NCBI GenBank assembly: GCA_017526905.1
Contig: JAFXQT010000032.1
Location: 1-39,167, forward strand
Reading direction: 5' to 3'
Source: Bacteroidaceae bacterium
GTDB taxonomy: Bacteria; Bacteroidota; Bacteroidia; Bacteroidales; Bacteroidaceae
DNA length: 39,167 bases
Below the pieces are notes generated by a model. That model had not been told where the DNA came from. It was given only the letters and a program-made list of their open reading frames with translations, and did no database searches. How positions within the stretch are numbered: position 1 is the first letter of the stretch; each line of letters begins with the position of its first letter. The translations under genes were made by a program, and so were the position numbers. Shown one piece after another: positions 16,463-39,167 of the stretch.

Positions 16463-16778
16463 GAAAAATGCAGGAAAAAGAAAATAACCGCGCAGATTTT
16501 AACATTTATGTTTAGTTTGACGTGGCCGTTTATTAGTAGTTAACAGGCAATAATCGCCATGACAGGAAAACATGTAAACGGTAGCCGCTCAGCCTAAGGG
16601 TCGCCTGCTTCTACGCGTGACATGAGGGACAATTGGGACAAATGTTTTTGCCACTAACACCGCACATGTCATTACACGCAGTCCCTCTCCTGCTTCCCAC
16701 ATAGCACCAACACACGGCCGCCACAGCATAAACTATGACATGTGCGCTGTTTTCCCACAAAAACTATTTGTTTTGCCT

Positions 16779-17042
16779 ACGTGGATACACACGTGTTCCC
16801 ACGTGGATACACACGTGTTCCCACGTGGACACACATGCATTCCCGCATGGATCCCTACGGGTTGCAGCCGGAAAGCGTACGGGTTGCGGCCGGAAAGCGT
16901 ACGGGTTACAGCCGGAAAGCGTACGGGTTCAAGGTCCAAGCACTTCGGGGGCTAAGTCCAAGCACTTCGGGGGCTAAGTCCAAGCACTTCGGGGGCTAAG
17001 TCCAAGCACTTCGGGGGCTAAGTCCAAGCACTTCGGGCAGCC
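16779..17042. repeat. Tandem array of twelve 22-bp units in three sequence families
   Basis: Twelve gap-free units begin at 16779 and every 22 bp after. Units 1-3 are ACGTGGATACACACGTG-type; units 5-7 are GCCGGAAAGCGTACGGGTT-type; units 8-12 are AGTCCAAGCACTTCGGG-type. Unit 4 (16845-16866) is a hybrid with a family-1 left half and a family-2 right half. A at position 7 and G at position 15 are kept in all twelve. Because 22 is not a multiple of 3, each family encodes the same 22-residue cycle in all three forward frames. No promoter or ribosome site suggests translation. Confidence 0.9.
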
Positions 17043-22317: not shown

Positions 22318-25290
22318 TTACATGCTGGCCAGTGTCTCGCGGATGGATGCAATCTTCTGCTCGGCATCGGCCTGTTTCTTGCGTTCCATCTCCACCACGG
22401 CGGCGGGTGCGTTCTGCACGAAGCGCTCGTTGGCCAGTTTCTTCTGGATGCTGGCCAGGAAACCTTCCAGGCGCTGCAGCTCGGACTCGAGTTTCTGGCG
22501 CTCGGCATCCAGGTCGATCAGGCTGCCCAGGGGCACGGCATACTCTGCGGTGCCGATGAGGAAGGAGGCGCTGCCCTTCGACTTCTCGCTGACGACGTTG
22601 ACGGTTTCGAGGTTGGCCATCTTCTTGAGGGCCTCTACGCCACCCTCAGGCAGCGGGCGCAGGTCGGTGGCATCTACCACTTCGAGCGTGAGCTTCTCCT
22701 TGGGAGCGATGTTCTTCTGCGAGCGCACGGCACGGACGTTGGTCACGATTTCCTTCAGCTCGTCGACGGCAGCACAGAGCTGACGGTCGTAGTCGGTCGA
22801 AGCTTCCATGTGAAGCTCGGCTCGCATGATGCTCTCGCCCGGCTGACGCTCGTAGAGTGCCTGCCATAGCTCTTCGGTGATGAAAGGCATGAAGGGGTGC
22901 ATCATCTTCAGCAGGATCTCGAAGAACTGCAGCGTGCTGTCGTAGGTGGCACGGTCGATAGGCTGTTGCTTGCCATCGACGTAAGCCGGCTTGATCATCT
23001 CGAGATACCACGACGAGAACTCGTCCCAGAACAGTTTGTACACCGTCATCAGGGCTTCCGAAAGACGATACTTCGAGAAGTCATCGGCCAGTTCCTCTGC
23101 TGCGATGCGCAACTTGGCTGCGAACCAGCCGGTGGCAAGCTTGGCAGCCTCGGGCTGCTCGCCCTCGGCCACCTGCCACCCCTTGACCAGGCGGAAGGCG
23201 TTCCAAATCTTATTGTTGAAGTTACGGCCTTGTTCGCAGAGGCTTTCGTCGAAGAGAATGTCGTTGCCGGCAGGGGCGCTGAGCATCATGCCCATGCGCA
23301 CGCCATCGGCACCGAAGCGGTCGATGAGGTCGAGCGGGTCGGGACTGTTGCCGAGGCTCTTGGACATCTTACGGCCCAGCTTATCGCGCACGATGCCAGT
23401 GAAATAGACGTGGCGGAAGGGCATCTTCTTCTCGTACTCGTAGCCGGCCATGATCATGCGGGCCACCCAGAAGAAGATGATGTCGGGACCAGTGACGAGG
23501 TCGGCCGTGGGATAGTAGTAGCTGATTTCTTCGTTGCCGGGGTTGCGGATGCCATCGAAGAGGCTGATGGGCCAGAGCCACGAGGAGAACCAGGTATCGA
23601 GGGCGTCTTCGTCCTGACGAAGAGTGAAGGAAGTGGCGCCCTCCCCTACGGCCCCCGAGGGGGCTTCTAATGTCTTGAGTACGGGATATGTCTCAAGGGC
23701 CAGCTTGTAGGCTTCGGCCTCGTTCTCAGCCACGATGACCTTACCCCAGGGATAATCGCCTCCCCTCGGGGAGGTCGGGAGGGGGCTAATATACCAGGCC
23801 GGAATGCGGTGGCCCCACCACAGCTGGCGCGAGATGCACCAGTCCTTGATGTTTTCCAGCCAGTGGCGGTAGGTGTTCTTGTACTTGGCGGGATAGAACT
23901 GGATGTCGTCGTTCATGACGGGGTCGAGAGCGATGTCGGCAAAGTGCTGCATCTTCAGGAACCACTGCATGGACAACTTGGGCTCGATGGGCACGCCGGT
24001 GCGCTCGGAGCAGCCAATTTTGTTGTCGTAGTCCTCGATTTTCTCCATCAGCCCGGCGGCAGTCATATCCTCGGCAATCTGCTTGCGGCAGGCAAAGCGC
24101 TCCATGCCGACGTACTTGTCCAGGCGGATGATAAATTCGTCGGCCACCTTCGTCTCGGCCAGCGACTTCTGCTGGGCGGTGGCGATGCGTTCGCTGAGGG
24201 TGGCATCGTCGTTGAAGATGTCGATGGCCTCGAGGTTGTACTTCTCGCCAAGCATGTAGTCGTTCACGTCGTGGGCAGGGGTCACCTTCAGGCAACCGGT
24301 ACCGAACTCGATGTCAACATATTCATCTTCAATGACGGGAATGACACGACCTACGACGGGCACGATGACCTTGCGGCCCTTGAGCCACTGGTTCTTGGGG
24401 TCCTTGGGGTTGATGCACATGGCCACGTCGCCCATGATAGTTTCGGGACGGGTGGTGGCAACGACGGCGTAATAGCCGCGGTCATCCTTGTGGATAATGT
24501 TACCCTCCATACTGGCCCCCTCTACGGCCCCCGAGGGGGCTTCTATACCATTGTTAGCAGCAGACGGGGCATACGTGTCCCCCTCGGAGGACGAAAGGGG
24601 GGCTTCCAGGTCGGCCAGATAATATTTCATGTAGTAGAGCTTCGTATGCTCTTCCTTGTAGATAACCTCCTCGTCAGAGAGGGCGGTGAGGGCCTTGGGG
24701 TCCCAGTTGACCATGCGCACGCCACGGTAGATGAGGCCTTTGCGGTAGAGATCGACAAACACCTTGATGACGCTCTCGGAGCGGGGCCCGTCCATGGTGA
24801 AGGCGGTGCGGTCCCAGTCGCACGAGCAACCCAGCTTTCGCAGCTGCTTGAGGATGATGCCTCCGTGCTCCTCGGTCCATGCCCAGGCATGTTTCAGGAA
24901 CTCCTCGCGGGTGAGATCGGCCTTCTTGATGCCCTGTTCGGCCAGGCGGTTCACCACCTTGGCCTCGGTGGCGATGCTGGCGTGGTCGGTGCCGGGCACC
25001 CAACAGGCGTTCTTGCCCTCCATGCGGGCGTGGCGCACCAGAATGTCCTGGATGGTTTCGTTCAGCACATGGCCCATGTGCAGCACACCCGTTACGTTGG
25101 GTGGCGGAATGACTACGGTGTAAGGCTCGCGGCCGTCGGGCTTCGAGCTGAACAGCTTATTGTCTAACCAATACTGGTACCATTTGCCCTCCACCTCGGC
25201 GGGGGAATACTTTGAGGCAAGAGTGGACTCTCCCCCCGCCCTCCCAGTCAGGGAGGAAGCAGTATCATTTGCTACTTGTTTGTTTTCCAT
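22318..25290 (-). CDS. valS: Valyl-tRNA synthetase
   Basis: A 990-residue class I synthetase that charges tRNA-Val and edits misactivated threonine. The HIGH motif is HMGH at residues 71-74 in [13 protein letters not shown], and KMSKS is at 641-645. The editing (CP1) domain lies between, with [11 protein letters not shown] near 280-290. The C-terminal anticodon-binding domain ends in a coiled-coil arm (about 925-990). It is longer than I would expect because five short segments are encoded by palindromic elements in frame: residues about 10-22, 228-239, 249-260, 500-511 and 541-553. They lie in the N-terminal tail and in apparent surface loops of or near the editing and catalytic domains. All motifs are intact, so it should be active; no second valS is in the window. 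Confidence 0.97.
23635..23670 (-). repeat. Intragenic palindromic element, valS copy 4
   Basis: Perfect core GCCCCC-GA-GGGGGC (23651-23664) next to a CCTCCCC run. It encodes [13 protein letters not shown] (about 541-553), directly before the conserved [15 protein letters not shown] segment. The element is antisense to the gene. Confidence 0.75.
23758..23792 (-). repeat. Intragenic palindromic element, valS copy 3
   Basis: Perfect core CCTCCCC-TC-GGGGAGG (23759-23774), followed by GGGAGGGGGCT. On the coding strand it gives [12 protein letters not shown] (about 500-511), just after the conserved GHRIPAWY. The element is antisense to the gene. Confidence 0.75.
24513..24546 (-). repeat. Intragenic palindromic element, valS copy 2b
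   Basis: Contains the same GCCCCC-GA-GGGGGC core as the copy at 23651, in the same orientation. It encodes [12 protein letters not shown] (about 249-260), nearly the same peptide as the copy at 541-553. Confidence 0.75.
24576..24608 (-). repeat. Intragenic palindromic element, valS copy 2a
   Basis: A diverged copy: CCCCCTCGGAGG core and a GGGGGGCTTC end. It encodes [12 protein letters not shown] (about 228-239). With the neighbouring copy it forms an insert of about 40 residues in front of the editing-domain motif ATTRPET. Confidence 0.65.
25225..25261 (-). repeat. Intragenic palindromic element, valS copy 1
   Basis: Core CCTCCC-AGTCA-GGGAGG (25240-25256) with adjoining C/G runs; here the element is in the sense orientation. 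It encodes [13 protein letters not shown] (about residues 11-23), close to the peptide at the same position in the hlyD product. Confidence 0.7.
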
Positions 25291-25431
25291 TTTTATGTAA
25301 TTTATTTTCTGTTTCTTCGTGTAATTGTTTCTCCCCGACCCGGCTCGCGCTCGGCCCGTAGGGACGCTTGACCATTCAAAAAAGAGACATTTGAACCTTC
25401 AAGAACGGGAAGGGGGGGAAGGGGGAGTATC

Positions 25432-26235
25432 TTATTTTTCCAACTTCTTTGCCTCCTCCCAGATCTTGTCCATCTCGGCCAGCGTCATTTCAGTGAGGGG
25501 CTTGCCTATGCGGATGCTGTGCTCCTCGAGATAGGTGAAGCGGCGGATGAACTTGCGGTTGGTGCGCTCCAGGGCATTGTCGGGGTTGAGTTTATAAAGG
25601 CGTGCGGCATTGATCACCGAGAAGAGGAAGTCGCCCAGCTCGTCGGTGCTCTTTTCCTTGTCCTGCCGGTTCAGCTCCACCTCCAGTTCGCCCAGTTCCT
25701 CGCGCACCTTGTCCCACACCTGCTCGCGGGTGTCCCAGTCAAAGCCCACGCCGCGTGCCTTGTCCTGGATGCGGTAGGCCTTGATGAGCGATGGCAGGGC
25801 ATCGGGCACGCCGCTGAGCACACGTTTGTTGCCGTCCTTCTCCTTCACCTTCAGCTGTTCCCAGTTCTTCAGCACCTGGTCCACCGTGACTTCGCCTTTC
25901 TCAATGCGTTCGGCATCGGGTCCATACACGTGCGGGTGGCGGTAGATAAGCTTGTCGCACAGTTTGTTGCACACGTCGGCAATGTCGAACTCGCCCTTCT
26001 CGCTGCCTATCTTGGCATAGAAGACGATATGCAGCAGGACATCGCCCAGTTCCTTGCAAATCTCTTGGTTGTCATTCTTCATCAGGGCATCGCAGAGTTC
26101 AAACGTCTCTTCGATGGTGTTGGGGCGCAGGCTCTCGTTGGTCTGCTTGCGGTCCCAGGGGCATTTTGCCCTCAGGTTGTCCATCACGTCGAGCAGTCGC
26201 CCGAACGCCTGTAGCTTTTCTTCGCGTGTGTGCAT
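25432..26235 (-). CDS. mazG: Nucleoside triphosphate pyrophosphohydrolase MazG
   Basis: A 267-residue protein with two tandem MazG modules. The first, at about 10-125, has the metal-binding pattern in EETFELCDALMKND ... EICKELGDVLLHIVFYA. The second, about 145-260, has VREELGELEVEL ... STDELGDFLFSVINAARL. MazG hydrolyses NTPs, including non-canonical ones, to NMP and pyrophosphate and can lower ppGpp levels; it acts in the cytoplasm. It is the first gene of a leftward group with valS (141 bp downstream) and the envelope protein gene. The spacer to valS is noncoding and holds G/C runs resembling a decayed palindromic element. Confidence 0.93.
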   Translation of the reverse strand: MHTREEKLQAFGRLLDVMDNLRAKCPWDRKQTNESLRPNTIEETFELCDALMKNDNQEICKELGDVLLHIVFYAKIGSEKGEFDIADVCNKLCDKLIYRHPHVYGPDAERIEKGEVTVDQVLKNWEQLKVKEKDGNKRVLSGVPDALPSLIKAYRIQDKARGVGFDWDTREQVWDKVREELGELEVELNRQDKEKSTDELGDFLFSVINAARLYKLNPDNALERTNRKFIRRFTYLEEHSIRIGKPLTEMTLAEMDKIWEEAKKLEK

Positions 26236-26258
26236 GTGCGTAGGATTAAATTTGGCCG

Positions 26259-26266
26259 CAAAGGTA
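26259..26266 (-). promoter_or_regulatory. Promoter -7 element of mazG
   Basis: Minus-strand TACCTTTG lies 24 bp before the mazG ATG. The upstream region is A/T-rich with no clear TTTG at -33. Confidence 0.6.
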
Positions 26267-26320
26267 GTAAAAAAGTTTAGAGTTTAAGGTTGAATGTCCA
26301 AAGAAATTCGCGGTTGCGGG

Positions 26321-26362
26321 CAAAAAAAAGACCTGCGGCAAGGGGGTTGCCTTGCCGCAGGT
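26321..26362 (-). terminator. Strong intrinsic terminator of the 39-residue gene
   Basis: On the minus strand a 12-bp perfect stem, ACCTGCGGCAAG (26351-26362) with CTTGCCGCAGGT (26331-26342), has an 8-nt loop. C and eight Ts follow. It ends the small gene at 26412 and insulates mazG. Confidence 0.9.
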
Positions 26363-26411
26363 GTGTGTATGCATGTCCTGACCGTGCCGTTCGGGATGCC
26401 AGGCAGCAGGC

Positions 26412-26531
26412 TTATGAGTACCAGATGGAGCTATTGCCAGCCTCATCGGAATAGCGCTCCATATCCTCATCGTTCAGATAGTTGTCCAACTCGTACTCCT
26501 CTTGTCCGTACATCTTTCTTTTCGGTTTCAT
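26412..26531 (-). CDS. Small acidic protein, 39 residues, unknown function
   Basis: ATG at 26531 opens MKPKRKMYGQEEYELDNYLN, ending after 19 more residues in SIWYS. AAAGGAGG is a textbook Shine-Dalgarno six bases upstream, which is rare in this window. With a full-consensus promoter (26586-26617) and a strong terminator (26321-26362), this is a complete single-gene unit. The basic MKPKRK start and acidic, Tyr-rich rest recall the 62-residue protein at 17210. No family is recognised and no membrane helix or signal peptide is seen. Confidence 0.75.
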   Translation of the reverse strand: MKPKRKMYGQEEYELDNYLNDEDMERYSDEAGNSSIWYS

Positions 26532-26585
26532 GTTGTGCCTCCTTTCGTGTTAGATGGTTAATAGGTGCGTTAGTTTGTTCTGTTG

Positions 26586-26617
26586 CAAAGATAGGCATTT
26601 AGGCCCGACCGGCCAAA
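26586..26617 (-). promoter_or_regulatory. Promoter of the 39-residue gene
   Basis: Minus-strand TTTG (26614-26617), 20-bp spacer, TATCTTTG (26586-26593): full consensus. The leader to the ATG is about 50 nt. Confidence 0.85.
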
Positions 26618-26743
26618 GAAAAGTGCACTTATTTTCGTTGTTTTTACCTTTCGGCAGTGTTTCTGCGCTGTTTTTAACCTCTTTTTAGGTTTTAGGCGTG
26701 CGCTGCCTGTTCGGCCCTGGCAGGTGGTGTGTCACGCCAGGCA

Positions 26744-28036
26744 TCAGTTGCCGTCGGGCTTCCGGCCCTCGAAGAAAGGAGACTGTACCCAGCGGAAGGT
26801 GGCGGGGTCGTCGGGCTGTGCGGGATTGTAGCCTTTGTAATCGGGGCGCACATACTGACCGATGGGCAGGCCGAGCTGTTTCAGGCACATCACCACGCAC
26901 TTGGCCACTTCGTAGGCTCCGTAGGGGTTGAAATGTGTGTTATCGGCCAGTGCACGACCCTGTCCGGGGAAGGTATTGGCAGGATAGTGCACCAGCGCCT
27001 GCTTGCTGCCCTCCTCGCCCAGGGTCTCGAAGAGGGTGCGGGTGTGTTCGTGCAGTTCCACCACGGGCACTTTCTCGCGCTGTGCCACCCAGCGCATGGC
27101 TTCGGGATAGTCGGCGTGGGTTTCCTGGATGCGGCCGTCCTTGAAGCTGCGACGCTGTGTGGGGGTGGCAAAGAGAGGCGTGGCGCCGCGCCGGCGTGTC
27201 TCATCGACAAAGGTCTTGAGCGCAGTGGCAAAGTTATAATAGGCACCGGCACCGGCAAAACGCTGCTTCTGGTCGTTGTGACCGAACTCGGCAATGAGAT
27301 AGTCGCCCTTGCGCATCATGGACAGCGCCTTGGCCAGGCGGTTGGCACTGATGGAGGTGGAAGCGGTCTCGCCACTCTCGGCAAAATTGGCAATGGCCAC
27401 TTCGGGGCCGAACCAACGCGTGATCATCTGTCCCCACGAGGCCCAGGGCTCGTAGTCCTGATCCACCACGGTGGAGTTGCCGCACAGGAAGAAGGTGATT
27501 GCGGTGGTGTCGGGCTCGATGCTCACGGCGGCCACGGCAGGGCTGGCGCCGTTGAACTCAAGCGTCAGACGGTCGTCCCAGTCGAGTTTGCTCCGCTCGC
27601 GATCCTTGATGCGCACGCTCTGCCGCTCGTCGATATAGGGCGAACGCTTGTTCACCGTGAAGGACACTTCCTGGAACTCGCCCTTCTTCGTGGTCATGTT
27701 CTCCACGAACAGCCTGCGGCTCTCGGCGCGGACGGTGGTCTCGCCGGCACGTTTCTTGCTGCCTATGAGCACCTTGACACGGTAGTTGCCATCAGGCACA
27801 CGCAGCGAGAAGAAGGCTGCATCGCCGTCCTTGGCAGGACTCTTGATGAAGTCATAGCCGTAGGTCACATCGGCCGAGTAGCGGTCGGTGGCCTTGACTT
27901 GTGTGTAAGCGGCGGGCACTTGTTTCAGTTTCTCACCGGTAAACTTGAAGTTCCACGGGCCTGTAGGCTGTGCCATGCAGACACTCACGGCAGCCAGCCC
28001 CTGCAGCAGGCTGCCCAGCAAAAACGTGCGTTTCAT
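26744..28036 (-). CDS. Rhamnogalacturonan acetylesterase-like SGNH hydrolase (CE12)
   Basis: A 430-residue secreted esterase with signal peptide MKRTFLLGSLLQGLAAVSVC. An N-terminal beta-rich domain (about 25-165) resembles a carbohydrate-binding module. The SGNH hydrolase follows: block I CGNSTVVDQ with nucleophile Ser188, block II ANFAESGETA with Gly222, block III EFGHNDQ with Asn, and block V ADNTHFNPYGAY carrying the Asp and His of the triad. The GNST form of block I and the two-domain layout fit CE12 enzymes, which remove acetyl groups from pectic rhamnogalacturonan. With the GH43 at the left edge it suggests use of plant cell-wall glycans. The ATG at 28036 was chosen for its signal peptide and for the promoter at 28070-28077. 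Confidence 0.88.
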   Translation of the reverse strand: MKRTFLLGSLLQGLAAVSVCMAQPTGPWNFKFTGEKLKQVPAAYTQVKATDRYSADVTYGYDFIKSPAKDGDAAFFSLRVPDGNYRVKVLIGSKKRAGETTVRAESRRLFVENMTTKKGEFQEVSFTVNKRSPYIDERQSVRIKDRERSKLDWDDRLTLEFNGASPAVAAVSIEPDTTAITFFLCGNSTVVDQDYEPWASWGQMITRWFGPEVAIANFAESGETASTSISANRLAKALSMMRKGDYLIAEFGHNDQKQRFAGAGAYYNFATALKTFVDETRRRGATPLFATPTQRRSFKDGRIQETHADYPEAMRWVAQREKVPVVELHEHTRTLFETLGEEGSKQALVHYPANTFPGQGRALADNTHFNPYGAYEVAKCVVMCLKQLGLPIGQYVRPDYKGYNPAQPDDPATFRWVQSPFFEGRKPDGN

Positions 28037-28069
28037 TATTGGATAGGGTTTTGTTAGTTTCTCATGCCG

Positions 28070-28077
28070 CAAAATTA
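28070..28077 (-). promoter_or_regulatory. Promoter -7 element of the CE12 gene
   Basis: Minus-strand TAATTTTG fits TAnnTTTG and lies 33 bp upstream of the ATG. It is divergent from the tex promoter about 60 bp away. Confidence 0.6.
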
Positions 28078-28140
28078 CGAAGAAAAGCGAAAAAGGGAAG
28101 GAAAAAGGCAAGAAAATAGCAAATAATAGCAAATAATGCC

Positions 28141-28148
28141 TACCTTTG
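28141..28148 (+). promoter_or_regulatory. Promoter -7 element of tex
   Basis: TACCTTTG lies 22 bp before the tex ATG, so the leader is short. No TTTG is seen at -33, but the upstream DNA is A-rich and contains repeated AATAGCAAAT. Confidence 0.6.
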
Positions 28149-28170
28149 CATCCAAACTGACACATAAACT

Positions 28171-30321
<2,151 letters not shown>

Positions 30322-30341
30322 GGGCTGGCTGCCTCCACACA

Positions 30342-31721
30342 CTACCATTCCACCACCTCGGCATCGCCAAAGCGGTCGTAGCCCCCGACGAGGACGCGGT
30401 CGCCTGCACTTAGCCCTTCCAGAACCTCATAGAACTCGGCATTCTGACGGCCGAGGCGAATGGGTATGCGCCGTGCGCGGTGCGGATTGTTGGCATCGAT
30501 GCGCATAATCCACTGTCCGCCTGTCTGTGCGTAAAAACTGCCACGTGGGATGACGAGCCGCCGCTCTGGTCGTCCCAACTCGATTTGCAAGCGCAGGGTC
30601 AAGCCGATCGGAGGCCCCTCCTTTCCTTCGCCCAGGGGGATGGCACCTGCAGGCCCGGCGCTCCCATCTTCGGAGAAGGGGGTGGACCGCAGTGCCTGCA
30701 GCTCTACGGCAAAGCTGTGTTCCTGCACCTGCGGCGTGACGCGGCTTACCTGCAGGGGGATGCGCCGGCCTTTGTGGATTGCCGTGGCCGGCTGTCCGCT
30801 TTGGATGCGGTCAATATAGTATTCGTTGAGCCGAGCCGTCACCTTGTAGCCTTCCAACACACCGATCTCGCCCACTTGCTCGCCTGCCGTCACCTGTCCG
30901 CCGACGATGGCGTTGAGGTTGGCAATCTGTCCATCGACAGGTGCGAGGACCACGAGTCCGTCCCAGCGCCCGTTGCTCTGCGCGAGCCGCTGCTGCTCCA
31001 TGCTCATCTGCTGCTCGATGAGTTTTCGGCTGATGGCGTTGAGCGTCGAGTCATGTCTGAGCCCTTCGATGGTGAGCAGTGTGCGCCGTCGGTTGTACTC
31101 ATATTCCTCGCGTGCCACCTCCAGCTGTGCCTTGCTCTTCACACCCATCTGATGTTCTTCCTGCGCGAGCTCGAAGTCCTTCTGCATCTTGCGCAGTTCG
31201 AAGTCGGCCTGCAGGGCCTGTTGCCGAAGCGTGATGCTTTTCTGCTGCATCTCCACCAGCTGTCGGCGGTGTGTCAGCTGCTGCATCTCATAGTTCCGCC
31301 GCTCGTCAGTCATCTCTTCCAAGACCTTCGGGTTGGACAGCACGAGGATGGTGTCGCCCCGCCTCAGGAGGTCGCCGTTATGGCAGCAGATGCGCTCCAC
31401 CGTGCCGCCTTCAACGGCGTTGACTCGTCGTGTGGTGAGCGGCACCACCAGCCCGTTCACATCGACATACTCCAGGAAGTCGCTGTCGCATGCCACCGCC
31501 ATCTCGTCGTCGCGGACGTCCGCTTTTAGCGTGCGGGGCCTCAACTGAAGGATGGCGGCATAGATCACCAGGGCGATGAGCCCTGCACCACCCAGCAAAT
31601 ACTTCCAATACTTCACGTACCAAGGCTTGGGGGGTAGTGGGATGTCCATGGCAGACCCACCCCCTGCCCTTCCTTGCAGGGAGGGTGCAGAATGTTTTTG
31701 GTTTGTTAAATCCTTTTCCAT
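30342..31721 (-). CDS. HlyD/MFP-type efflux adaptor
   Basis: A 459-residue periplasmic adaptor. One membrane anchor lies at about 42-62 (YLLGGAGLIALVIYAAIL). A first barrel-sandwich half begins near 90 (NAVEGGTVERICCHNGDLLRRGD). A long coiled-coil hairpin spans about 125-240. The second half (LAPVDGQIANLNAIVGGQVTAGEQ) and beta-barrel domains follow. Such adaptors bridge an inner-membrane transporter and TolC. It is 77 bp downstream of tolC in one operon. Two palindromic-element inserts are in frame: residues about 11-24 (SAPSLQGRAGGGSA), in the cytoplasmic tail, and about 344-370 (STPFSEDGSAGPAGAIPLGE and on), in a loop of the periplasmic beta domain. Confidence 0.9.
   Translation of the reverse strand: MEKDLTNQKHSAPSLQGRAGGGSAMDIPLPPKPWYVKYWKYLLGGAGLIALVIYAAILQLRPRTLKADVRDDEMAVACDSDFLEYVDVNGLVVPLTTRRVNAVEGGTVERICCHNGDLLRRGDTILVLSNPKVLEEMTDERRNYEMQQLTHRRQLVEMQQKSITLRQQALQADFELRKMQKDFELAQEEHQMGVKSKAQLEVAREEYEYNRRRTLLTIEGLRHDSTLNAISRKLIEQQMSMEQQRLAQSNGRWDGLVVLAPVDGQIANLNAIVGGQVTAGEQVGEIGVLEGYKVTARLNEYYIDRIQSGQPATAIHKGRRIPLQVSRVTPQVQEHSFAVELQALRSTPFSEDGSAGPAGAIPLGEGKEGPPIGLTLRLQIELGRPERRLVIPRGSFYAQTGGQWIMRIDANNPHRARRIPIRLGRQNAEFYEVLEGLSAGDRVLVGGYDRFGDAEVVEW
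30611..30690 (-). repeat. Double palindromic element inside hlyD
   Basis: On the coding strand CCACCCCCTTCTCC is followed by CCCCCTGGGCGAAGG then AGGAGGGGCCT. It looks like two partial copies joined head to tail around a GC-rich centre. It encodes about 27 residues rich in Gly, Pro, Ser and Ala. Confidence 0.55.
31650..31690 (-). repeat. Intragenic palindromic element near the hlyD start
   Basis: On the coding strand CCCTCCCTG ... AAGGGCAGGGGGTGGGTCT. It is a type-1 copy (GGGGGTGGG end), sense orientation, and encodes SAPSLQGRAGGGSA at residues 11-24. Confidence 0.75.
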
Positions 31722-31774
31722 AGTGTCTTTCTTCGTCCTCTTTTATCTCTTCCCTTTTATATCTTATATTTCAT

Positions 31775-31809
31775 ATTTCATATTTTATATTTCATATTTT
31801 ATATTTCAT
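31775..31809. repeat. A/T-rich 14-bp tandem repeat between tolC and hlyD
   Basis: ATTTCATATTTTAT occurs twice in a row (31775-31788 and 31789-31802) with partial copies on both sides. The tolC stop codon (31799-31801) is inside it. The tract could vary in copy number by slippage and alter the tolC-hlyD spacing or the end of TolC. Confidence 0.6.
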
Positions 31810-33256: not shown

Positions 33257-33268
33257 GCTTTGCCATGG

Positions 33269-33284
33269 AGCAACATCTGTGCCA
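33269..33284 (-). promoter_or_regulatory. Sigma-54 promoter of tolC-hlyD
   Basis: Minus-strand TGGCACAGATGTTGCT fits the -24/-12 consensus TGGCACR-N4-TTGCW at every defined position. Counting from the -12 C at 33270, transcription should start near 33258, two bases before the tolC ATG. Confidence 0.85.
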
Positions 33285-33340
33285 AAGCGTTATCATACTG
33301 ACAGCCAATGCGATGACGGGCAGTCTTCGATGGCCACGCT

Positions 33341-33374
33341 GTGCGATTCCACTCACCAGTGTGCTTTTCCGCAC
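33341..33374 (-). promoter_or_regulatory. Paired activator sites upstream of tolC
   Basis: GTGCTTTTCCGCAC (33361-33374) and the related GTGCGATTCCAC (33341-33352) start 20 bp apart. They match the dyad GTGCG-N4-CGCAC found upstream of the regulator and permease genes. They lie about 83-117 bp before the predicted tolC start, the usual place for an NtrC-type activator. Between 33385 and 33650 I see no gene. Confidence 0.7.
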
Positions 33375-33655
33375 AGCCTCTTCGCCACCGCACGGGAAAG
33401 ACTCGGACTACCGTTGATGGCCCCGTGGCATCTTCCACGGAGAGCCTGCCGTGCCCTTCGTCAGCACCTGTTCAACAGCGCTGAACCCGAATCGGTCATC
33501 AGCGCTTGAGTGATGGCAACTTAAATTATTGAACAGATGTTTTGACGCTTTGAAGGAACTGGTGGGGTTCCATTGCAACTGAAAAGCGGTGAAACAGCTG
33601 ACAAAAAGAATGTCTGTCAGGGCATAAACAGTCTAATGACCGCTTCGAATTTATG

Positions 33656-33689
33656 GTGCGGAAGCGCACGCGGGTGTGCGTTTCCGCAC
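33656..33689 (+). promoter_or_regulatory. Paired activator sites upstream of the response regulator gene
   Basis: GTGCGGAAGCGCAC (33656-33669) and GTGCGTTTCCGCAC (33676-33689) are both full GTGCG-N4-CGCAC dyads. They start 20 bp apart. The second extends to a 16-bp dyad, TGTGCG-TTTC-CGCACA. They are the best pair in the window and suggest autoregulation. Confidence 0.75.
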
Positions 33690-33760
33690 AAAATGGCTCC
33701 GTCATGCGACGCCGCGCTAAAAAGGTCGGCCTCGGCTGGGCTTATCTGAAGTATTCTATC

Positions 33761-33768
33761 TATCTTTG
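33761..33768 (+). promoter_or_regulatory. Housekeeping -7 element before the response regulator gene
   Basis: TATCTTTG fits TAnnTTTG and lies 37 bp before the ATG at 33806. No good -33 element is visible. The dyad pair would lie about 85-120 bp upstream of the implied start. Confidence 0.55.
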
Positions 33769-33805
33769 TGCCCAGCTTGCAAGACATTGCTGCAAGCATT
33801 CGCCT

Positions 33806-35185
33806 ATGGAAAAGAAAGGAAAGATACTCATCATTGACGACAACGAGGACATCCTCTTCGCGCTGAACCTGCTGCTGAAGCCGCTGGTGGAGGACCTCCG
33901 CGTGACGACGAAGCCGGAGCAGGCGGACAGGTTCATGGACTTGCTCCGTCCCGACGTGGTACTGCTGGATATGAACTTCAGGCGCGATTCCATCAGCGGC
34001 GAGGAAGGCTTCGAGTGGCTGGAGCACATCCTGCACCGCGACCCGCAGGCGGTGGTCATCATGATGACGGCCTATGCCGATGCCGACAAGGCGGTACGTG
34101 CACTGAAGAGCGGCGCCACGGACTTCGTCACCAAGCCGTGGGACAACAGCAAGCTGCTGGCGACGCTCTTCGCCGGCGTAGAACTCAGCCGCGAACGCCA
34201 CAAAGCGCGCTTGCTGGAACAGCGCATGGAGGTGGCCGCCTCGCCCTTCGGAGCCACGGCAGCACCAACGATTATCGGCGAGAGTGCCGCCATGCGACAA
34301 GTGATGCAGACGGTGGCACAGGTGGCGCCGACAGATGCCAACGTGCTCATCCTGGGCGAGAACGGCACGGGCAAGGATGTCATCGCCCGCCAGCTGTGCG
34401 CCCTCTCGGCGCGGGCCTCGAAGCCCTTCGTGAGCATCGACTTGGGCAGCGTGCCGGAGCAACTCTTCGAAAGCGAGCTGTTCGGCTACGAGAAAGGGGC
34501 GTTCACGGGGGCGCTCAAGGCGAAGGCAGGGCGCATGGAGGCGGCATCGGGCGGCACGCTCTTCCTCGATGAAATAGGCAACCTGCCGCTGCCATTGCAG
34601 GCCAAGCTGCTGGCAGCTCTGGAGCGCCGCGAGATCTCGCGACTGGGCAGTACACAGCTGACGCCCATCGATGTCCGCCTGCTCTGCGCCACAAATGCAG
34701 ATATCCATGCAGAGGTCGCCGAAGGTCGCTTCCGTGAAGACCTGCTCTACCGCATCAACACCATCGAAATCACGATGCCGCCCTTGCGCGACCGCGGCGA
34801 GGACATCATCCTGCTGGCCGAGCACTTCCTCGGCCTCTACGCACGTAAATATAACAAGGTGTCGCTCTCACTGAACCGCGATGCCCGTCAGCGGCTGCTG
34901 CGCCACACGTGGCCGGGCAACGTGCGGGAACTGATGCACGCCGTGGAGCGCGCCGTGCTGCTGGCCAAGGGGCCGGGGCTCTGCGCCCAGGACTTCGTGC
35001 TGAAGGAACCGTCGCGCCGCTCGTCACAGACGCCGACGCTGAACCTCGAACGCTTGGAGCAGGAAGCCATCCACAGGGCCATGGACATCGCCGGAGGCAA
35101 CGTAAGCCGGGCGGCAGAGCTGTTGGGAATCACGAGATTCGCGCTGTACAGGAAGCTCAGGCCCTCCGCCGACTCCTGCCGGTGA
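33806..35185 (+). CDS. NtrC-family sigma-54-dependent response regulator
   Basis: A 459-residue activator. The receiver domain (about 5-122) has acidic pocket Asp11/Asp12, phosphoacceptor Asp55 in VVLLDMNF and Lys110 in TKPWD. The AAA+ domain (about 157-390) has Walker A GENGTGKD (184-191), the sigma-54-contacting GAFTGA loop (231-236) and Walker B TLFLDEIG (251-258). A Fis-type helix-turn-helix ends it (about 415-455, NVSRAAELLGITRFALYRKL). The intact GAFTGA means it should remodel sigma-54 holoenzyme. It is encoded with a histidine kinase 77 bp downstream and flanked by genes with sigma-54 promoters and shared dyads, its likely targets. I start at 33806 since the longer frame begins inside the dyad sites. 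The final SADSCR and stop lie in a decayed palindromic element. Confidence 0.95.
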   Translation: MEKKGKILIIDDNEDILFALNLLLKPLVEDLRVTTKPEQADRFMDLLRPDVVLLDMNFRRDSISGEEGFEWLEHILHRDPQAVVIMMTAYADADKAVRALKSGATDFVTKPWDNSKLLATLFAGVELSRERHKARLLEQRMEVAASPFGATAAPTIIGESAAMRQVMQTVAQVAPTDANVLILGENGTGKDVIARQLCALSARASKPFVSIDLGSVPEQLFESELFGYEKGAFTGALKAKAGRMEAASGGTLFLDEIGNLPLPLQAKLLAALERREISRLGSTQLTPIDVRLLCATNADIHAEVAEGRFREDLLYRINTIEITMPPLRDRGEDIILLAEHFLGLYARKYNKVSLSLNRDARQRLLRHTWPGNVRELMHAVERAVLLAKGPGLCAQDFVLKEPSRRSSQTPTLNLERLEQEAIHRAMDIAGGNVSRAAELLGITRFALYRKLRPSADSCR

Positions 35186-35215
35186 GGGGGAGCGGGGAGG
35201 GCTGGAACTTCTGAA
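35163..35215 (+). repeat. Decayed palindromic element at the end of the response regulator gene
   Basis: CTCCTGCCGGTGAGGGGGAG then CGGGGAGGGCT aligns with the type-2 element, with mismatches in the C-rich arm. The TGA stop of the regulator (35183-35185) lies inside. Confidence 0.45.
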
Positions 35216-35262
35216 CTCCAAGGAAGTGGAGCAAAAGCGAAACTTTCATCATAGAGATTATT

Positions 35263-36444
35263 ATGCGAACCTATTTGTTGTATATCATCGGGCTTATCGT
35301 GCTGCCGCTGGCCATCGCGACCTGCCTGTTTGCGCATCTGCCCGTCACCGCAGTTGCCGTGGGGTTTCTGCTGTCGGGCTTGTGCTTCTCCTTGTATGGT
35401 CGCATCAGCCGGCTGCGCTATGCCTACCGCGAGACAGAGCGGGAGAACGAGCGGCTGCACACGCGAGTGACCGAGGCTGAGCGGCAACTGCAATACCTGC
35501 GACAACTGACCGAGAACGTCGACACCGCCCTCTTCATCTGCGACACGGATGGACGGATTGACTGGATGAACCATGCGGCCCGTGCCCTGGCGACTATGAA
35601 ATTCGCCAGCATGGGATGCTCAGACAGCCTCCCCTATGGGGGGAAGTTGGAGGGGGCTATTCTTCAGGCCATCGCCAATCACGAGGAAGTGGTAGATGGC
35701 TGTGCCCTCTCTACGGTGCTGCTGCGCATTGATGGCCAACGTCGCCTCGTGGTGGCGCTGAAGGATGTCTCGATGCTGATGCAACGCCAGGAGATGGAAG
35801 CGTGGCAGCAACTCATCCGCGTGCTGACCCACGAAATCATGAACTCACTCACACCCATCATCTCAATCAGCGAGACGATGGCCGATTCCCTCCCCCAAGG
35901 GGGAGGACAGGAGGGGGCCTCGGTCATCAACCGCCGCTGCCACGCGCTGCTCGACTTCGTGGAGAGTTACCGCCAACTGACGCGCATCAAGGCACCCGAG
36001 CGGACCACCTTCCGCGTCAGCGATCTTTTCGAACACATAAAGGTCCTCTTTCCGCAGGTGAACATCAAGGAACAAGTCCCCTCTCGGGGGGATTTAGAGG
36101 GGGCCGCATTAAGTGCCGACCGCTCCCAGCTGGAACAGGTGCTCATCAATCTCGTCAAGAATGCCTACGAGAGCGGTGCCACGGAGGTGCGGCTCACCGC
36201 GCAGCCTCTCCCCTCCCTGATGGGAGGGGGTGGGTCTGCAATCCGTGTGGAGGACAACGGCCGCGGCATGGCGCCCGATGTCCTTGCCAACGCCTTCATC
36301 CCCTTCTACACCACCAAGCCCAGCGGCACTGGCATCGGCCTTGCCCTCTGCCGGCAGATTATCCTGAAGCACGGTGGCCGCATCAGCGTGGAGAGCCAAG
36401 AGGGCCGCGGCACCACCTTCACGATCGAACTGCCACAGGCCTGA
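35263..36444 (+). CDS. Sensor histidine kinase
   Basis: A 393-residue kinase. Two membrane helices close together lie at about 3-22 and 27-45, with almost no periplasmic domain. A coiled linker follows, then a PAS-like segment near 80-165 (ENVDTALFICDTDGRIDWMN). The phosphoacceptor His190 is in LTHEIMNSLTPI. The ATPase domain has N-box LVKNAYESGA, G1 VEDNGRGMAP, F-box FIPFYTTKPSG and G2 GTGIGLALC. It should phosphorylate the NtrC-type regulator encoded upstream. Lacking a large sensor domain, it may sense the membrane or partner proteins. Four palindromic elements are in frame at residues about 122-133, 209-220, 272-283 and 315-326, all in sense orientation and between conserved boxes. Confidence 0.93.
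   Translation: MRTYLLYIIGLIVLPLAIATCLFAHLPVTAVAVGFLLSGLCFSLYGRISRLRYAYRETERENERLHTRVTEAERQLQYLRQLTENVDTALFICDTDGRIDWMNHAARALATMKFASMGCSDSLPYGGKLEGAILQAIANHEEVVDGCALSTVLLRIDGQRRLVVALKDVSMLMQRQEMEAWQQLIRVLTHEIMNSLTPIISISETMADSLPQGGGQEGASVINRRCHALLDFVESYRQLTRIKAPERTTFRVSDLFEHIKVLFPQVNIKEQVPSRGDLEGAALSADRSQLEQVLINLVKNAYESGATEVRLTAQPLPSLMGGGGSAIRVEDNGRGMAPDVLANAFIPFYTTKPSGTGIGLALCRQIILKHGGRISVESQEGRGTTFTIELPQA
35628..35661 (+). repeat. Intragenic palindromic element, kinase copy 1
   Basis: CCTCCCCTATGGGGGG then GGAGGGGGCT. It encodes SLPYGGKLEGAI within the PAS-like region. Confidence 0.75.
35889..35921 (+). repeat. Intragenic palindromic element, kinase copy 2
   Basis: Perfect 8-bp arms CCTCCCCC-AA-GGGGGAGG (35889-35906), then GGAGGGGGCCT. 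It encodes SLPQGGGQEGAS between the phosphoacceptor helix and the second helix of the dimerisation domain. Confidence 0.8.
36076..36110 (+). repeat. Intragenic palindromic element, kinase copy 3
   Basis: CCCCTCTCGGGGGG then AGAGGGGGCC. It encodes PSRGDLEGAALS just before the N-box. Confidence 0.7.
36205..36240 (+). repeat. Intragenic palindromic element, kinase copy 4
   Basis: Perfect 8-bp arms CCCCTCCC-TGAT-GGGAGGGG (36210-36229), then GTGGGTCTGC, a type-1 copy. It encodes PLPSLMGGGGSA between the N-box and the G1 box. Confidence 0.8.
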
Positions 36445-36448
36445 AGTG

Positions 36449-36482
36449 GTGCATTTCCGCACGCCCATGAGCGGAAGCGCAC
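36449..36482 (+). promoter_or_regulatory. Paired activator sites upstream of the ABC permease gene
   Basis: GTGCATTTCCGCAC (36449-36462) and GAGCGGAAGCGCAC (36469-36482) each differ from GTGCG-N4-CGCAC at one base and start 20 bp apart. They lie about 84-117 bp before the predicted sigma-54 start, the same geometry as at tolC. Confidence 0.75.
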
Positions 36483-36539
36483 ATAGGCGGACGAACGCCA
36501 ATCCACCGTATCACACTGTAAATCAGAATTTTCTTATTT

Positions 36540-36555
36540 TGGCACGGCCATTGCA
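36540..36555 (+). promoter_or_regulatory. Sigma-54 promoter of the ABC permease gene
   Basis: TGGCACGGCCATTGCA matches the -24/-12 consensus TGGCACG-N4-TTGCA at all defined positions. Predicted start near 36566, 24 bp before the ATG at 36590. Confidence 0.92.
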
Positions 36556-36589
36556 AGGTATAAGGCGTAACTCGTCAACTTAAAATTAC

Positions 36590-39013
36590 ATGAAACAAGC
36601 ATTCCGCCTTCTCACCCGCATGAGAGGCTACACCGCCCTCTCGCTGCTGGGCCTCATCATTTCGCTCAGCGGCACCGTCATCATCAGCCGCTACCTGCAT
36701 CAGGAGTGGACCGTGGACCACTTCATGCCTGCGCTGGACCGCACGTACGTCCTTGGCATCCAATTCAACAAGAAGGGCATGTATGATGATGCCGACTACC
36801 TGGCGTCCAGCTACGACCCCAATCATGAGGCCAGTTTCATCTCGCCTGTGGAAGGACAGAGTGAGGTAGAGGCGTACTGCGACATCAATCTGCGCAAGGA
36901 GTTTCCTGTGGACCCCGAAAGCCACGAGGTGTTCTTTCCTGCCGCCATCACCGTGAAGGACAGCATGTTCTTCCAGGTCTATCCGCTACACATTGTGGAG
37001 GGTGCCCGACTGTTGACGGCCAACGGCCAGTGTATGGTCAGCGAGGAGCTGGCGCGCCGCCTGTTCCCCGATGAGAGCGCGGTGGGCAAGAGCATCAACA
37101 TCGAGGACGGCACGCCGCACACTATACAAGCTGTGTTCCGCCAGCCCGACACTAAATCGACCCTGCGCTTCGACCTCATTCAGTTCCGTAAGGATGAAAT
37201 ACACAGCAACAGCCTGGGCCTCTGCCTCGTGCTGCTGCGTGAAGGCGCCAGCGCGGAAGCATACAACGAGCGACAACCCGTTCAGACGATGACGCTTCAC
37301 GCCAACCGGGAACTCCGTTTCTGCCTGCGTCCTTATCGCGACTTGATCAAAACGCTGTCCCATTGGCAGGGCTATGCGAACGCTGGCTACCCATGTATCC
37401 AGCCAAGCAGTTCTCCTGCCCACCTGTGGATGCTGCTGTTTGTGGCCGTGCTGCTGCTGTTCGTGGGGCTATTCAACTTCGTGAACCTCTACGCCGTGAT
37501 GCGCCGCCGACGGCAGCATGAACTGCACGTGCGCCGCATCTTCGGCGCCTCACGCTGGGACGTGTTTTGCCAACTCTATGCCGAGACCTTCGTCCTCGGC
37601 CTGCTCACAATGGTTGGCGTGTGGACGGTGGTAGAGCTATCGGAGCCCCTGCTCGCCACCTATTATAATTTAGAGGTGCAGCCGCAGTGGAAGTTCGACG
37701 TGGGGCTCACGCTGGTAATACTCTCGGGATTGCCATTGGTTAGCACCCTATACTCCCCCGGTTGGGGACGTTCAAACGAGGCATCATCTTTCTTCGCCCC
37801 CCACCGGGGGGCCACGGGGGGCTTCCTCTTCCTCCAATTCTTCATCTCCCTCACCCTGCTCAATGTCAGCCTCTACTTCATGCGCCAGCTGAACGTGATG
37901 ATGACCACCGACCCGGGCTTCCGCACCAAGGGGTTGCTGAGCGTGCTCCTACAGCCGGAGCGTAATGTGGAATCGTGGTCAGAGGAGGAGTGGGACAAAC
38001 ATGTGGCAACGGCCAACAGGAACCGCGACATCATCCTGCAACGCCTTGCCGCCAACCCCCACATCAAGGGCTTTTGCTTTGACCCGCAGCTCATTGGCGA
38101 CGGCAGCCCCATAGAGGTGAACGAGAAGCACAAGATGAACATCCACTGGATTAGCCCCGAGGCGATGCAACTCTTCGGCATAGAGACCGTGGCCGGACGC
38201 ACGTTCAATGACACTACAGACATCTTCGAGCAGTACCTCTGTCTGGTCAACGAGACGGCCATCCGCCAACTCGGCATCAAGGACTTCCGCCGCTACAAGC
38301 TGCAGTTCCCCCAGCGGTTGTGGTATTCCAGCGGCTTGGATTTCGGCACCAATCCTCCTTACGAGATTGTGGGCGTAGTCCGTGACTTCCATTCCGGTCG
38401 CATGTCGGAGCCGTTGATGCCCACGGCCTACTTCTTCGACGGCTCGTTCAAGCGCGAGAGCTTTTTCGGCCTTGAGGGAAAGCAACTGTTGATAGATGTT
38501 GCCGAAGGGCACGAGGAAGAAGTGCTGGGCGATTTGCGCAACCTCGTACATGAACTCTCAGGTACCAACGAGCTCAACTACCAATGGCTTGAGGACCAGC
38601 GCCGGGCGCTCTACAGCGAGGACCAGCGCACCGCCCGCATCTTCGTCACCTTCTCGCTGCTGGCCATCGCCGTGACGTGCCTCGGCGTGCTGGGCCTGAT
38701 GATGTTCGACGTGCGCCGCCGCTTCCGCGAAATTGCCCTGCGCAAGGTCAACGGCGCCACTTTCCGCGACATCGCCCTGCTGCTCTCGCGCCGCTACCTC
38801 ACGGTCTTCGCCATTGCCGCCGTGGCCTCGCTGCCCGTCAGCCTCATCGTCATCCACCGCCTCATGGCCTCCTACACCATCCGCACCAGCTTCGCCTGGT
38901 GGATTCCGCTACTGAGCATCGCCCTCATCCTCGCTCTCTGCGCCCTCACGCTCTGGTATCAGGTGTGGAAGGCTACAAGAATAAAGCCGTATAAAGTGCT
39001 GAAGGAGCAATAA
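36590..39013 (+). CDS. MacB/FtsX-type ABC transporter permease
   Basis: An 807-residue inner-membrane permease with a duplicated MacB/FtsX layout. A first helix lies at about 14-35. A periplasmic domain (about 36-270) is followed by three helices (near 282-300, 325-350, 365-385). After the linker with the palindromic insert come another helix near 412-430, a second periplasmic domain, and a C-terminal FtsX unit with helices near 690-710, 740-765 and 780-800 (MMFDVRRRFREIALRKVNGAT is the usual cytoplasmic loop, residues about 702-722). No ATPase gene is in the window; it is presumably encoded downstream. Driven by a sigma-54 promoter with the same activator sites as tolC-hlyD, it is the likely inner-membrane part of that export system. 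Its substrate is unknown. Confidence 0.9.
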   Translation: MKQAFRLLTRMRGYTALSLLGLIISLSGTVIISRYLHQEWTVDHFMPALDRTYVLGIQFNKKGMYDDADYLASSYDPNHEASFISPVEGQSEVEAYCDINLRKEFPVDPESHEVFFPAAITVKDSMFFQVYPLHIVEGARLLTANGQCMVSEELARRLFPDESAVGKSINIEDGTPHTIQAVFRQPDTKSTLRFDLIQFRKDEIHSNSLGLCLVLLREGASAEAYNERQPVQTMTLHANRELRFCLRPYRDLIKTLSHWQGYANAGYPCIQPSSSPAHLWMLLFVAVLLLFVGLFNFVNLYAVMRRRRQHELHVRRIFGASRWDVFCQLYAETFVLGLLTMVGVWTVVELSEPLLATYYNLEVQPQWKFDVGLTLVILSGLPLVSTLYSPGWGRSNEASSFFAPHRGATGGFLFLQFFISLTLLNVSLYFMRQLNVMMTTDPGFRTKGLLSVLLQPERNVESWSEEEWDKHVATANRNRDIILQRLAANPHIKGFCFDPQLIGDGSPIEVNEKHKMNIHWISPEAMQLFGIETVAGRTFNDTTDIFEQYLCLVNETAIRQLGIKDFRRYKLQFPQRLWYSSGLDFGTNPPYEIVGVVRDFHSGRMSEPLMPTAYFFDGSFKRESFFGLEGKQLLIDVAEGHEEEVLGDLRNLVHELSGTNELNYQWLEDQRRALYSEDQRTARIFVTFSLLAIAVTCLGVLGLMMFDVRRRFREIALRKVNGATFRDIALLLSRRYLTVFAIAAVASLPVSLIVIHRLMASYTIRTSFAWWIPLLSIALILALCALTLWYQVWKATRIKPYKVLKEQ
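37753..37826 (+). repeat. One or two palindromic elements inside the permease gene
   Basis: CTCCCCCGGTTGGGGACG (37753-37770) and, 26 bp on, CCCCCC-ACC-GGGGGG (37797-37811) followed by ACGGGGGGCTTCC. Together they encode SPGWGRSNEASSFFAPHRGA and a few more residues (about 388-412) in the linker between the two permease halves. Confidence 0.7.
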
Positions 39014-39014
39014 A

Positions 39015-39050
39015 GGAAGCCCACCCCTAACCCCTCCCCAGGGAGGGGGA
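39015..39050 (-). repeat. Intergenic palindromic element, type 1, reversed
   Basis: GAAGCCCACCCC, then perfect arms CCCCTCCC-CA-GGGAGGGG (39031-39048). It starts 2 bp after the permease stop codon and is inverted relative to the copy in the next gene. Confidence 0.8.
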
Positions 39051-39094
39051 ATGAAAAGTTAGTTATTATCAATATAAAAAATATAAATACAATT

Positions 39095-39167
39095 ATGAAT
39101 ATGAAAGACAACATCAGCAAGAGTAACCAATCCCCCCTCCCTTGGGGAGGGGATGGGGGTGGGCTTC
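39095..39167 (+). CDS. Start of a further gene, truncated by the window
   Basis: ATG at 39095 opens MNMKDNISKSNQSPLPWGGD and continues to the window end; ATG at 39101 is an alternative start. Only 24 codons are present and the last half of them comes from a palindromic element (39131-39167). Position and strand suggest another permease or the ATPase of the export system, but the sequence seen cannot show this. Confidence 0.5.
   Translation, partial: MNMKDNISKSNQSPLPWGGDGGGL
39131..39167 (+). repeat. Palindromic element, type 1, at the start of the last gene
   Basis: CCCCTCCC-TTG-GGGAGGGG (39134-39152), then ATGGGGGTGGGCTTC. It encodes the peptide SPLPWGGDGGGL at about residues 13-24. Its last 12 bases are the exact reverse complement of the first 12 of the element at 39017. 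Confidence 0.8.

Follow-up and report, generated by a model that had tools for sequence, protein, structure and literature searches.

Selfish palindromic sequences that insert in frame into genes are best known from Rickettsia, and a miniature inverted-repeat transposable element (MITE) has reportedly been found in Porphyromonas gingivalis. Here we describe a set of small, hairpin-forming C- and G-rich elements that lie in frame within protein-coding genes of a member of the Bacteroidaceae, in a contig of 39,167 nucleotides (GCA_017526905.1, JAFXQT010000032.1) that was analysed at its full length and is called the window below. The closest described systems are of several kinds. In the sections cited, Rickettsia palindromic elements (RPEs) are palindromic DNA that sits in frame within a wide range of unrelated conserved genes (PMC2229807, PMC10969869), while repetitive extragenic palindromes (REPs) are hairpins of 20-40 bp, found as singles and as inverted doublets (REP doublets forming hairpins, REPINs), which are mostly intergenic, carry a GTAG or CGTC foot, and have intragenic copies in several species (PMC3733652, PMC6006769). 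For several families of MITE, such as Correia/NEMIS and ERIC, in-frame fusions are noted in the section cited (PMC2229807). Among the top-ranked papers for several queries, a literature search returned none dealing with the present elements in Prevotella or Bacteroidales; the supposition of a first-pass annotation of this DNA, that they are undescribed, is therefore uncontradicted in the literature found, though not proven.

The explanation that best fits our observations, to which we give a probability of about 0.8, is that these are small non-autonomous mobile elements, belonging to several related families, that survive in frame within genes and would move by HUH transposition; that the copies are mobile DNA elements is itself almost certain. 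A structure scan, which seeks a C-rich arm, a loop of 2-7 nt, a complementary G-rich arm, 0-6 nt and a G-run, located 12 copies in the window, ranging from 23,758 to 39,163, against none in the same sequence read backwards, which served as the control for scans and patterns alike. With the degenerate copies recognised by eye only (23,637-23,667; 37,738-37,768; parts of 25,330-25,430 and 30,605-30,700), the first-pass estimate of about 15 was a fair one. Its observation that most lie inside genes also holds, since ten of the 12 fall within open reading frames (ORFs) of at least 150 amino acids, namely valS, hlyD, a kinase and a permease, and one of the two remaining copies (39,134-39,163) belongs to the N-terminal part of the following gene, truncated by the contig end; the other (39,020-39,048) is intergenic. 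That truncated gene is complete at loci L003 and L065, where a Walker motif, seen by eye, points to an ATP-binding cassette protein. Copies occur in both orientations and several frames, and the encoded peptides vary accordingly. The window constitutes the entire contig C69 of its genome, a draft of 2.80 Mb in 104 contigs and 79% complete; the closest labelled records, in which a response regulator is 82-90% identical, are metagenome-assembled genomes, mostly from the rumen, labelled Prevotella, Prevotellaceae, Bacteroidaceae, Bacteroides or Bacteroidales. Genomes, loci and contigs are numbered below with G, L and C respectively. The host genes and elements of the window are as follows.

22318-25290, minus strand: valS (valyl-tRNA synthetase), host of five arms (Pfam PF00133/PF08264/PF10458; aligned with ORFs of 30 loci, where L081 is its own copy)
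23637-23667, minus strand: C-type arm in valS with a decayed tail, missed by the scan and seen by eye; extra residues relative to orthologues
23757-23789, plus strand: B-type arm in valS (scan), extra relative to most orthologues
24512-24608: C-type two-armed unit in valS (scan), arms 24512-24543 (minus) and 24576-24608 (plus), gap 35 nt
25225-25262, minus strand: A-type arm in the valS N-terminus (scan); a two-armed version is present in L087
30342-31721, minus strand: hlyD-like membrane fusion gene (Pfam PF13437)
31648-31686, minus strand: A-type arm in the hlyD N-terminus, SAPSLQGRAGGGSA (scan)
35263-36444, plus strand: histidine kinase gene with four arms (Pfam, alignment, structure model)
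35627-35658, plus strand: B-type arm in the kinase, SLPYGGKLEGA (scan)
35888-35919, plus strand: B-type arm in the kinase, SLPQGGGQEGA (scan, alignment)
36075-36105, plus strand: B-type arm in the kinase, VPSRGDLEGA (scan, alignment)
36205-36242, plus strand: A-type arm in the kinase, in a beta-hairpin turn of the HATPase domain, LPSLMGGGGS (scan, alignment, model)
36590-39013, plus strand: FtsX/MacB-type permease (Pfam)
37738-37827: C-like unit with two arms in a loop of the permease; the minus arm, 37738-37768, is decayed (by eye), and the plus arm is 37796-37827 (scan)
39016-39167: A-type unit with two arms, 39016-39051 (minus) and 39128-39167 (plus), covering the start of the next gene, whose start codon (39095 or 39101) lies in the space between the arms

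The A-type arm at the N-terminus of valS probably has a decayed partner within 25330-25430, judged by eye.

Many copies are two-armed, consisting of two inverted hairpins with their G-runs facing outward and a short centre between them, and single arms occur too. What had been proposed as two separate element types of 30-40 bp is better described as several subtypes (here A, B and C), many of whose copies are arms of a two-armed unit. In 20 stretches of genome G144 the scan recorded 93 copies against 4 in the control; overlapping matches were merged before pairs and ORF placements were counted. The scan may score a single hairpin twice, once per strand (as at L001 9523/9534). Neighbours within 300 nt of each other in G144 are ordered minus then plus in 29 of 31 cases, and 26 of these 29 have gaps of 35-113 nt, the rest measuring 8, 165 and 209 nt. 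The same order is seen in 23 of 24 C-type close pairs among 104 places from ten genomes, taken from a table of the first places in each genome (genomes showing no two places within 300 nt being omitted), and among those pairs the arms are spaced 64 nt apart in 18 of 24 and 52 nt apart in two. The outer ends of units are AGACCC/GGGTCT or AGACTCTCC/GGAGAGTC-like, and within a subtype, as grouped by eye, the sequence adjacent to the arms recurs (e.g. GGCTGGCGCG, AGTAATTACC) while the middle is variable. A-type arms in G144 (51 copies) are mostly flanked by CT before and TCT after, each base at 84-94%. The entire unit of the outer-membrane gene described below is matched at other places in many genomes, at about 76-86%, and arms resemble their own partners more than shuffled ones, both in G144 (similarity 19.6 versus 14.8, standard deviation 1.0) and at other loci (22.0 versus 12.4, standard deviation 1.4).

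Inverted arms, the 64-nt spacing fixed in most C-type pairs and the outer ends AGACCC/GGGTCT would also suit MITEs whose inverted ends are recognised by a DDE transposase, the parent element having been lost or having gone unnoticed and the hairpins being incidental. We regard this as a possible but doubtful origin. Each arm is itself a hairpin, as compensated pairs in C-type arms indicate: next to the C5/G5 run, 26 of 27 rows have a standard pair, of three types (17 GC, 6 TA, 3 CG), set against 13 of 27 rows in which the following pair is non-standard. Single arms are, moreover, common in coding regions, and no parent element turned up, though no systematic search for one was made.

Degenerate patterns with a built-in reversed control, used in place of a covariance model, show that the elements are far more numerous than base composition predicts, the opposite of an outcome that the first-pass annotation said would refute its reading. 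The A-type pattern, GGGAGGGGN{1,4}GGGGTGGG, matches 2,176 times over 139 genomes of the same genus, against 9 times reversed (summed from the per-genome table); it is present in 98 of the 139, with 0-219 copies in each. The genome of the window itself has 35 matches, spread over 17 of its 104 contigs, and none reversed. These copies are clustered, eight on C76 and seven on C28. The C-type pattern, which also picks up some B-like arms, occurs in 57 of the 139 genomes, with eight matches in the window's own and none anywhere in the reversed control. In an even sample of the order at least one A-type copy is found in 37 of 393 genomes and 27 of 207 genera, the window's genome included. In 1.10 Mb of loci distant from the clade there are 6 copies, compared with 1 in the control. 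The set is genus-wide, genuine and active-looking.

Comparison with orthologues bears on the nature of the copies most directly. Of the valS sequences from other families, the 11 that span the internal sites all lack the inserts, as do most relatives within the genus, and L086 and L087 have other subtypes at the window's sites (alignments A1-A3 were set aside for excess gaps). At about 23757-23789 a different subtype is present in these two loci and a B-type arm in L091; at 24512-24608 an insert of such length is present in no other aligned valS, L087 having a single C-type arm. The residues are therefore not shared with distant orthologues, and the claim that this is a DNA element and not a protein domain stands, valS and kinase relatives being either insert-free or provided with different inserts in the same loops. 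Recurring peptides might still be attributed to a Gly/Pro-rich protein motif or to expansion of a codon repeat, but the peptides differ with orientation and frame, some copies are intergenic, and neither hairpin symmetry nor insert-free orthologues would follow, so that we give this explanation practically no credence. The valS sites also bear on local template switching, by which an inserted hairpin would be copied into an inverted partner during replication, producing pairs with no transposase. It would account for arms that are matched within pairs, for the valS site whose two arms are of a single subtype in L086 and L087 but of two further subtypes in the window, and for valS arms that enclose host sequence, but it leaves unexplained both the dispersal of whole units, centres included, to unrelated sites and the orientation rule obeyed by 29 of 31 neighbours, and we think it unlikely.

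The kinase and permease provide loops in which close relatives differ. After the kinase motif SET[ML], 19 sequences display four insert forms and five empty relatives (L005, L006, L012, L015 and L057): one B-type insert is common to the window, L002, L008, L010 and L011; L003 and L013 have another insert; L009 has an A-type pair and L065 a C-type pair; and L001, L004, L007, L014 and L016 hold decayed or unlike sequence. The peptide SLPQGGGQEGA is identical in L008, L010 and L011 and differs by one residue in L002. In the permease loop an insert of some sort is found in nearly all 14 aligned sequences, mostly dissimilar from one another, and one L005 permease has an Ala-Asn-Gly repeat there. 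The differing inserts at both loops indicate that tolerant loops have been struck repeatedly. The A-type copy in the HATPase turn is common to several species and may represent one old event. In L003 the HATPase loop contains a second GC-rich sequence, seemingly nested in the A-type arm; by eye, L013 has a similar sequence, and so does the window in the region upstream of valS (25330-25380).

The clearest filled and unfilled sites are in an outer-membrane barrel (OMP) gene, identified with Pfam, which carries a unit in the window's genome (L171) and in G035, G045 and G104, and lacks it in the same-genus genomes G126, G142 and G003, with flanks in G142 that are 95% and 93% identical. Both anchors of this gene were found in eight of the 17 loci tried, the remaining loci being uncounted. 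Between the same anchors filled alleles measure 194-221 nt, against 95 nt in G126 and 86 nt in G142, and so the unit adds 99-135 nt; all eight alleles read are of equal length modulo 3. In G000 part of the added length is a tandem repeat of the tip. A related arrangement is seen at L171/L261 on contig C40 of the window's genome, where the unit tip CAAGACTCT stands in three in-frame tandem repeats. About 170 nt further along the gene, by eye, there is a C-type unit in G000, G126 and G142 and an A-type unit in G003, G045 and G104. No target duplication is visible at this best filled and unfilled site, where unfilled alleles may hold tip remnants, and at the kinase loop and the gene start after the permease host bases were seemingly lost rather than duplicated; both observations count against the DDE-mobilised MITEs considered above. 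Two apparent element tips in the G126 allele would be read from their sequence as a footprint, and there may be element remnants in G003 and perhaps G142.

Insertion appears to be almost indifferent to gene boundaries. Copies within stop-to-stop ORFs of at least 150 amino acids number 74 of 92 in G144 (random placement 0.91), 52 of 64 at loci L001-L018, L057 and L065 (random 0.88), and the ten of 12 in the window (random 0.86). Among the genes that carry units or arms are those for GH2 beta-galactosidase, threonine synthase, orotidine monophosphate decarboxylase and glutamate synthase. Pfam places the unit inside a domain span in four of nine G144 host ORFs checked, the domains being the GH2 TIM barrel, threonine synthase (PALP), orotidine monophosphate decarboxylase, whose arms may flank host sequence, and the N-terminal region of DPP IV. 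Hairpins with G-runs, some of them adjoining gene ends, might suggest transcription terminators or regulatory RNA or DNA structures conserved in place, but with 74 of 92 G144 copies inside ORFs, and with sequence and position varying among species in the same gene, this is very improbable. A structure model of the kinase (29 sequences, mean pLDDT 85, pTM 0.55) predicts that the inserts mostly occupy loops: those near residues 122-132, 271-281 and 316-324 lie wholly or almost wholly between secondary-structure elements, that at 209-219 takes in a loop joining two helices and the opening residues of the second, and pLDDT falls below 50 at residues 119-123 and 319-321. Over the three sets the mean number of open frames per copy is 4.97, 5.33 and 5.19, against 4.59, 4.72 and 4.63 at random; a design free of stops in all six frames was set aside, the excess being modest only.

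Units also occur over gene starts. In L005, L009, L012 and L014 the stretch downstream of the permease consists of a stop codon, a handful of bases and an ATG, with no unit; in the window, L003 and L065 a two-armed unit is present, neither flank retains the native ATG, and the centre holds an ATG that may be the element's own or the native one; L001, L010, L011 and L015 have other sequence. The start of valS in L087 resembles the arrangement downstream of the permease. We refer to units that cover a gene start and contain the start codon as caps. The 73 distinct units in scanned loci, identical ones being counted once, comprise 18 caps, 34 that pass through a frame and 21 that do neither. In one genome, G144, gene starts are enriched, with caps making up 12 of 29 units against 6.4% for random placement (p 8e-8). 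Whole-codon differences in C-type length (arms 64 nt apart or 12 less), slightly fewer stops than chance and caps enriched over gene starts in at least one genome lead us to suggest, tentatively and against the odds, a family adapted to coding sequence, in whose caps the start codon would be followed by a short leader rich in N, S, T, K and Q and then by the arm; if true, this would be a roaming cassette, supplying proteins with new N-terminal caps and giving rise to new loops at their surface.

With regard to the enzyme responsible, the first-pass annotation advised looking for a Y1_Tnp transposase in the same genome. At E<=0.001 PF01797 (Y1_Tnp) has no match in that genome. There is, nonetheless, a divergent protein resembling the REP-associated tyrosine transposases (RAYTs), carrying a PDHVH motif and ending in a long C-terminal region, which matches NCBIfam REP_Tyr_transpos at 3.7e-8, below that model's cut-off. 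Relatives of it are encoded in 89 of the 139 same-genus genomes, with six matches in the window's own. The median number of A-type copies is 10 in genomes where the RAYT-like gene is present and 1 where it is absent (p 4e-8, Spearman 0.585), and at least 10 copies nonetheless occur in three of the 50 genomes that lack it. The advice thus led to a RAYT-like family that tracks copy number, and not to PF01797 or to flanking elements. The RAYT-like ORF at L160:10402-11541 has a C-terminal part of about 180 amino acids that Pfam does not name. The RAYT-like genes of L221, L225, L248 and L258 neighbour palindromes of other sequence (TGCTGCAACA/TGTTGCAGCA; GTTGCGTTG/CAACGCAAC), and the OMP gene of G108 (L266) contains an in-frame palindrome similar to those beside RAYT-like genes.

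Several observations weigh against the reading of these copies as mobile units moved by HUH transposition. Canonical Y1_Tnp was rejected as the driver, copy number being unrelated to it (26 genomes with E<=1e-15, p 0.97); ten strong Y1 loci hold two element copies in total. The association of the RAYT-like gene with copy number is raw, ignoring phylogeny, genome size and completeness. Elements do not as a rule flank RAYT-like genes: 40 stretches (253 kb, 39 with the gene) hold 17 copies against 5 in the control, and 30 loci hold 4 against 1, the exceptions being L222 and L237, where a C/G hairpin lies within about a dozen nucleotides of the stop codon. Several RAYT-like genes adjoin palindromes of their own instead. 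Together, these facts make the HUH step a lead and not a result, and we put a role for a RAYT in movement at somewhat less than an even chance. As to the units, an arm's own partner is its best match in just 4 of 29 G144 pairs and 10 of 19 elsewhere; the valS arms at 23.6-23.8 kb enclose a host-homologous segment, so that not every pair is one unit; and unfilled OMP alleles may retain tip remnants. Finally, G106 is noisier than G144, with 136 copies against 31 in the control and all four orientations represented, and its caps (1 of 13 against 4% at random, p 0.41) are not enriched.

Elsewhere in the window, positions 1-23600 give no scan matches. Two adjacent arrays of 22-bp tandem repeats (e.g. 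CGGGGGCTAAGTCCAAGCACTT) occupy 16754-17037, where no ORF of at least 100 amino acids is listed, and an AT-rich TTTCATATTTTATA-type repeat at 31736-31805 separates hlyD from an outer membrane efflux gene.

In proposing mobile elements that survive in frame, we envisage a complete unit, mostly of about 85-160 bp, composed of two inverted hairpin arms with G-runs outermost and a short centre. An HUH (Y1, RAYT-like) transposase acting in trans may recognise the single-strand hairpins and so bring about movement. Units would disperse to unrelated sites, entering genes nearly as often as chance placement would have it, and would persist where the frame is kept and the position is a loop or a protein N-terminus; those retained would become short peptide inserts, or caps containing the start codon. 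Our observations show directly that the copies are repeats, that units have two arms, that sites exist in filled and unfilled form, that the frame is kept, that inserts lie mostly in loops in one modelled protein and that caps are enriched over gene starts in one genome; the step by which a transposase moves the units is inferred. Behaviour of the Rickettsia kind is thus found among rumen Bacteroidota, across most genomes of a single genus and with filled and unfilled orthologous sites between close relatives, in a system that lets one measure how often proteins accept mobile DNA, which loops are tolerant and whether inserts gain functions. There is also a warning for annotation, as these genomes hold element-derived peptides and displaced start codons.

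Compared with described systems, the elements resemble MITEs in being small and non-autonomous with terminal inverted repeats, but differ in that each arm is its own hairpin; no target duplication is visible at the OMP site, whose unfilled alleles may hold tip remnants. Like REPs and REPINs they are palindromes of 20-40 bp at high copy number, present as singles and inverted doublets; unlike them, they are mostly intragenic, the RAYT-like genes are unflanked by them, and no conserved GTAG/CGTC foot was found in the A and C types counted (CGTC stands at the C-type foot in 5 of 27 rows, and A-type arms mostly have CT/TCT flanks), and by the tests made they are not to be filed as REPs. The parallel with RPEs drawn in the first-pass annotation is apt in behaviour, since both insert in frame in conserved protein genes whose orthologues lack the insert. 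By description rather than by sequence, the two differ in phylum and in structure, two G-tailed hairpins here and one long stem-loop in the RPE, and the present elements have more than one subtype in each genome, several in all, and also lie across gene starts. These elements behave like RPEs and REPINs, and are a new form of a known type of element.

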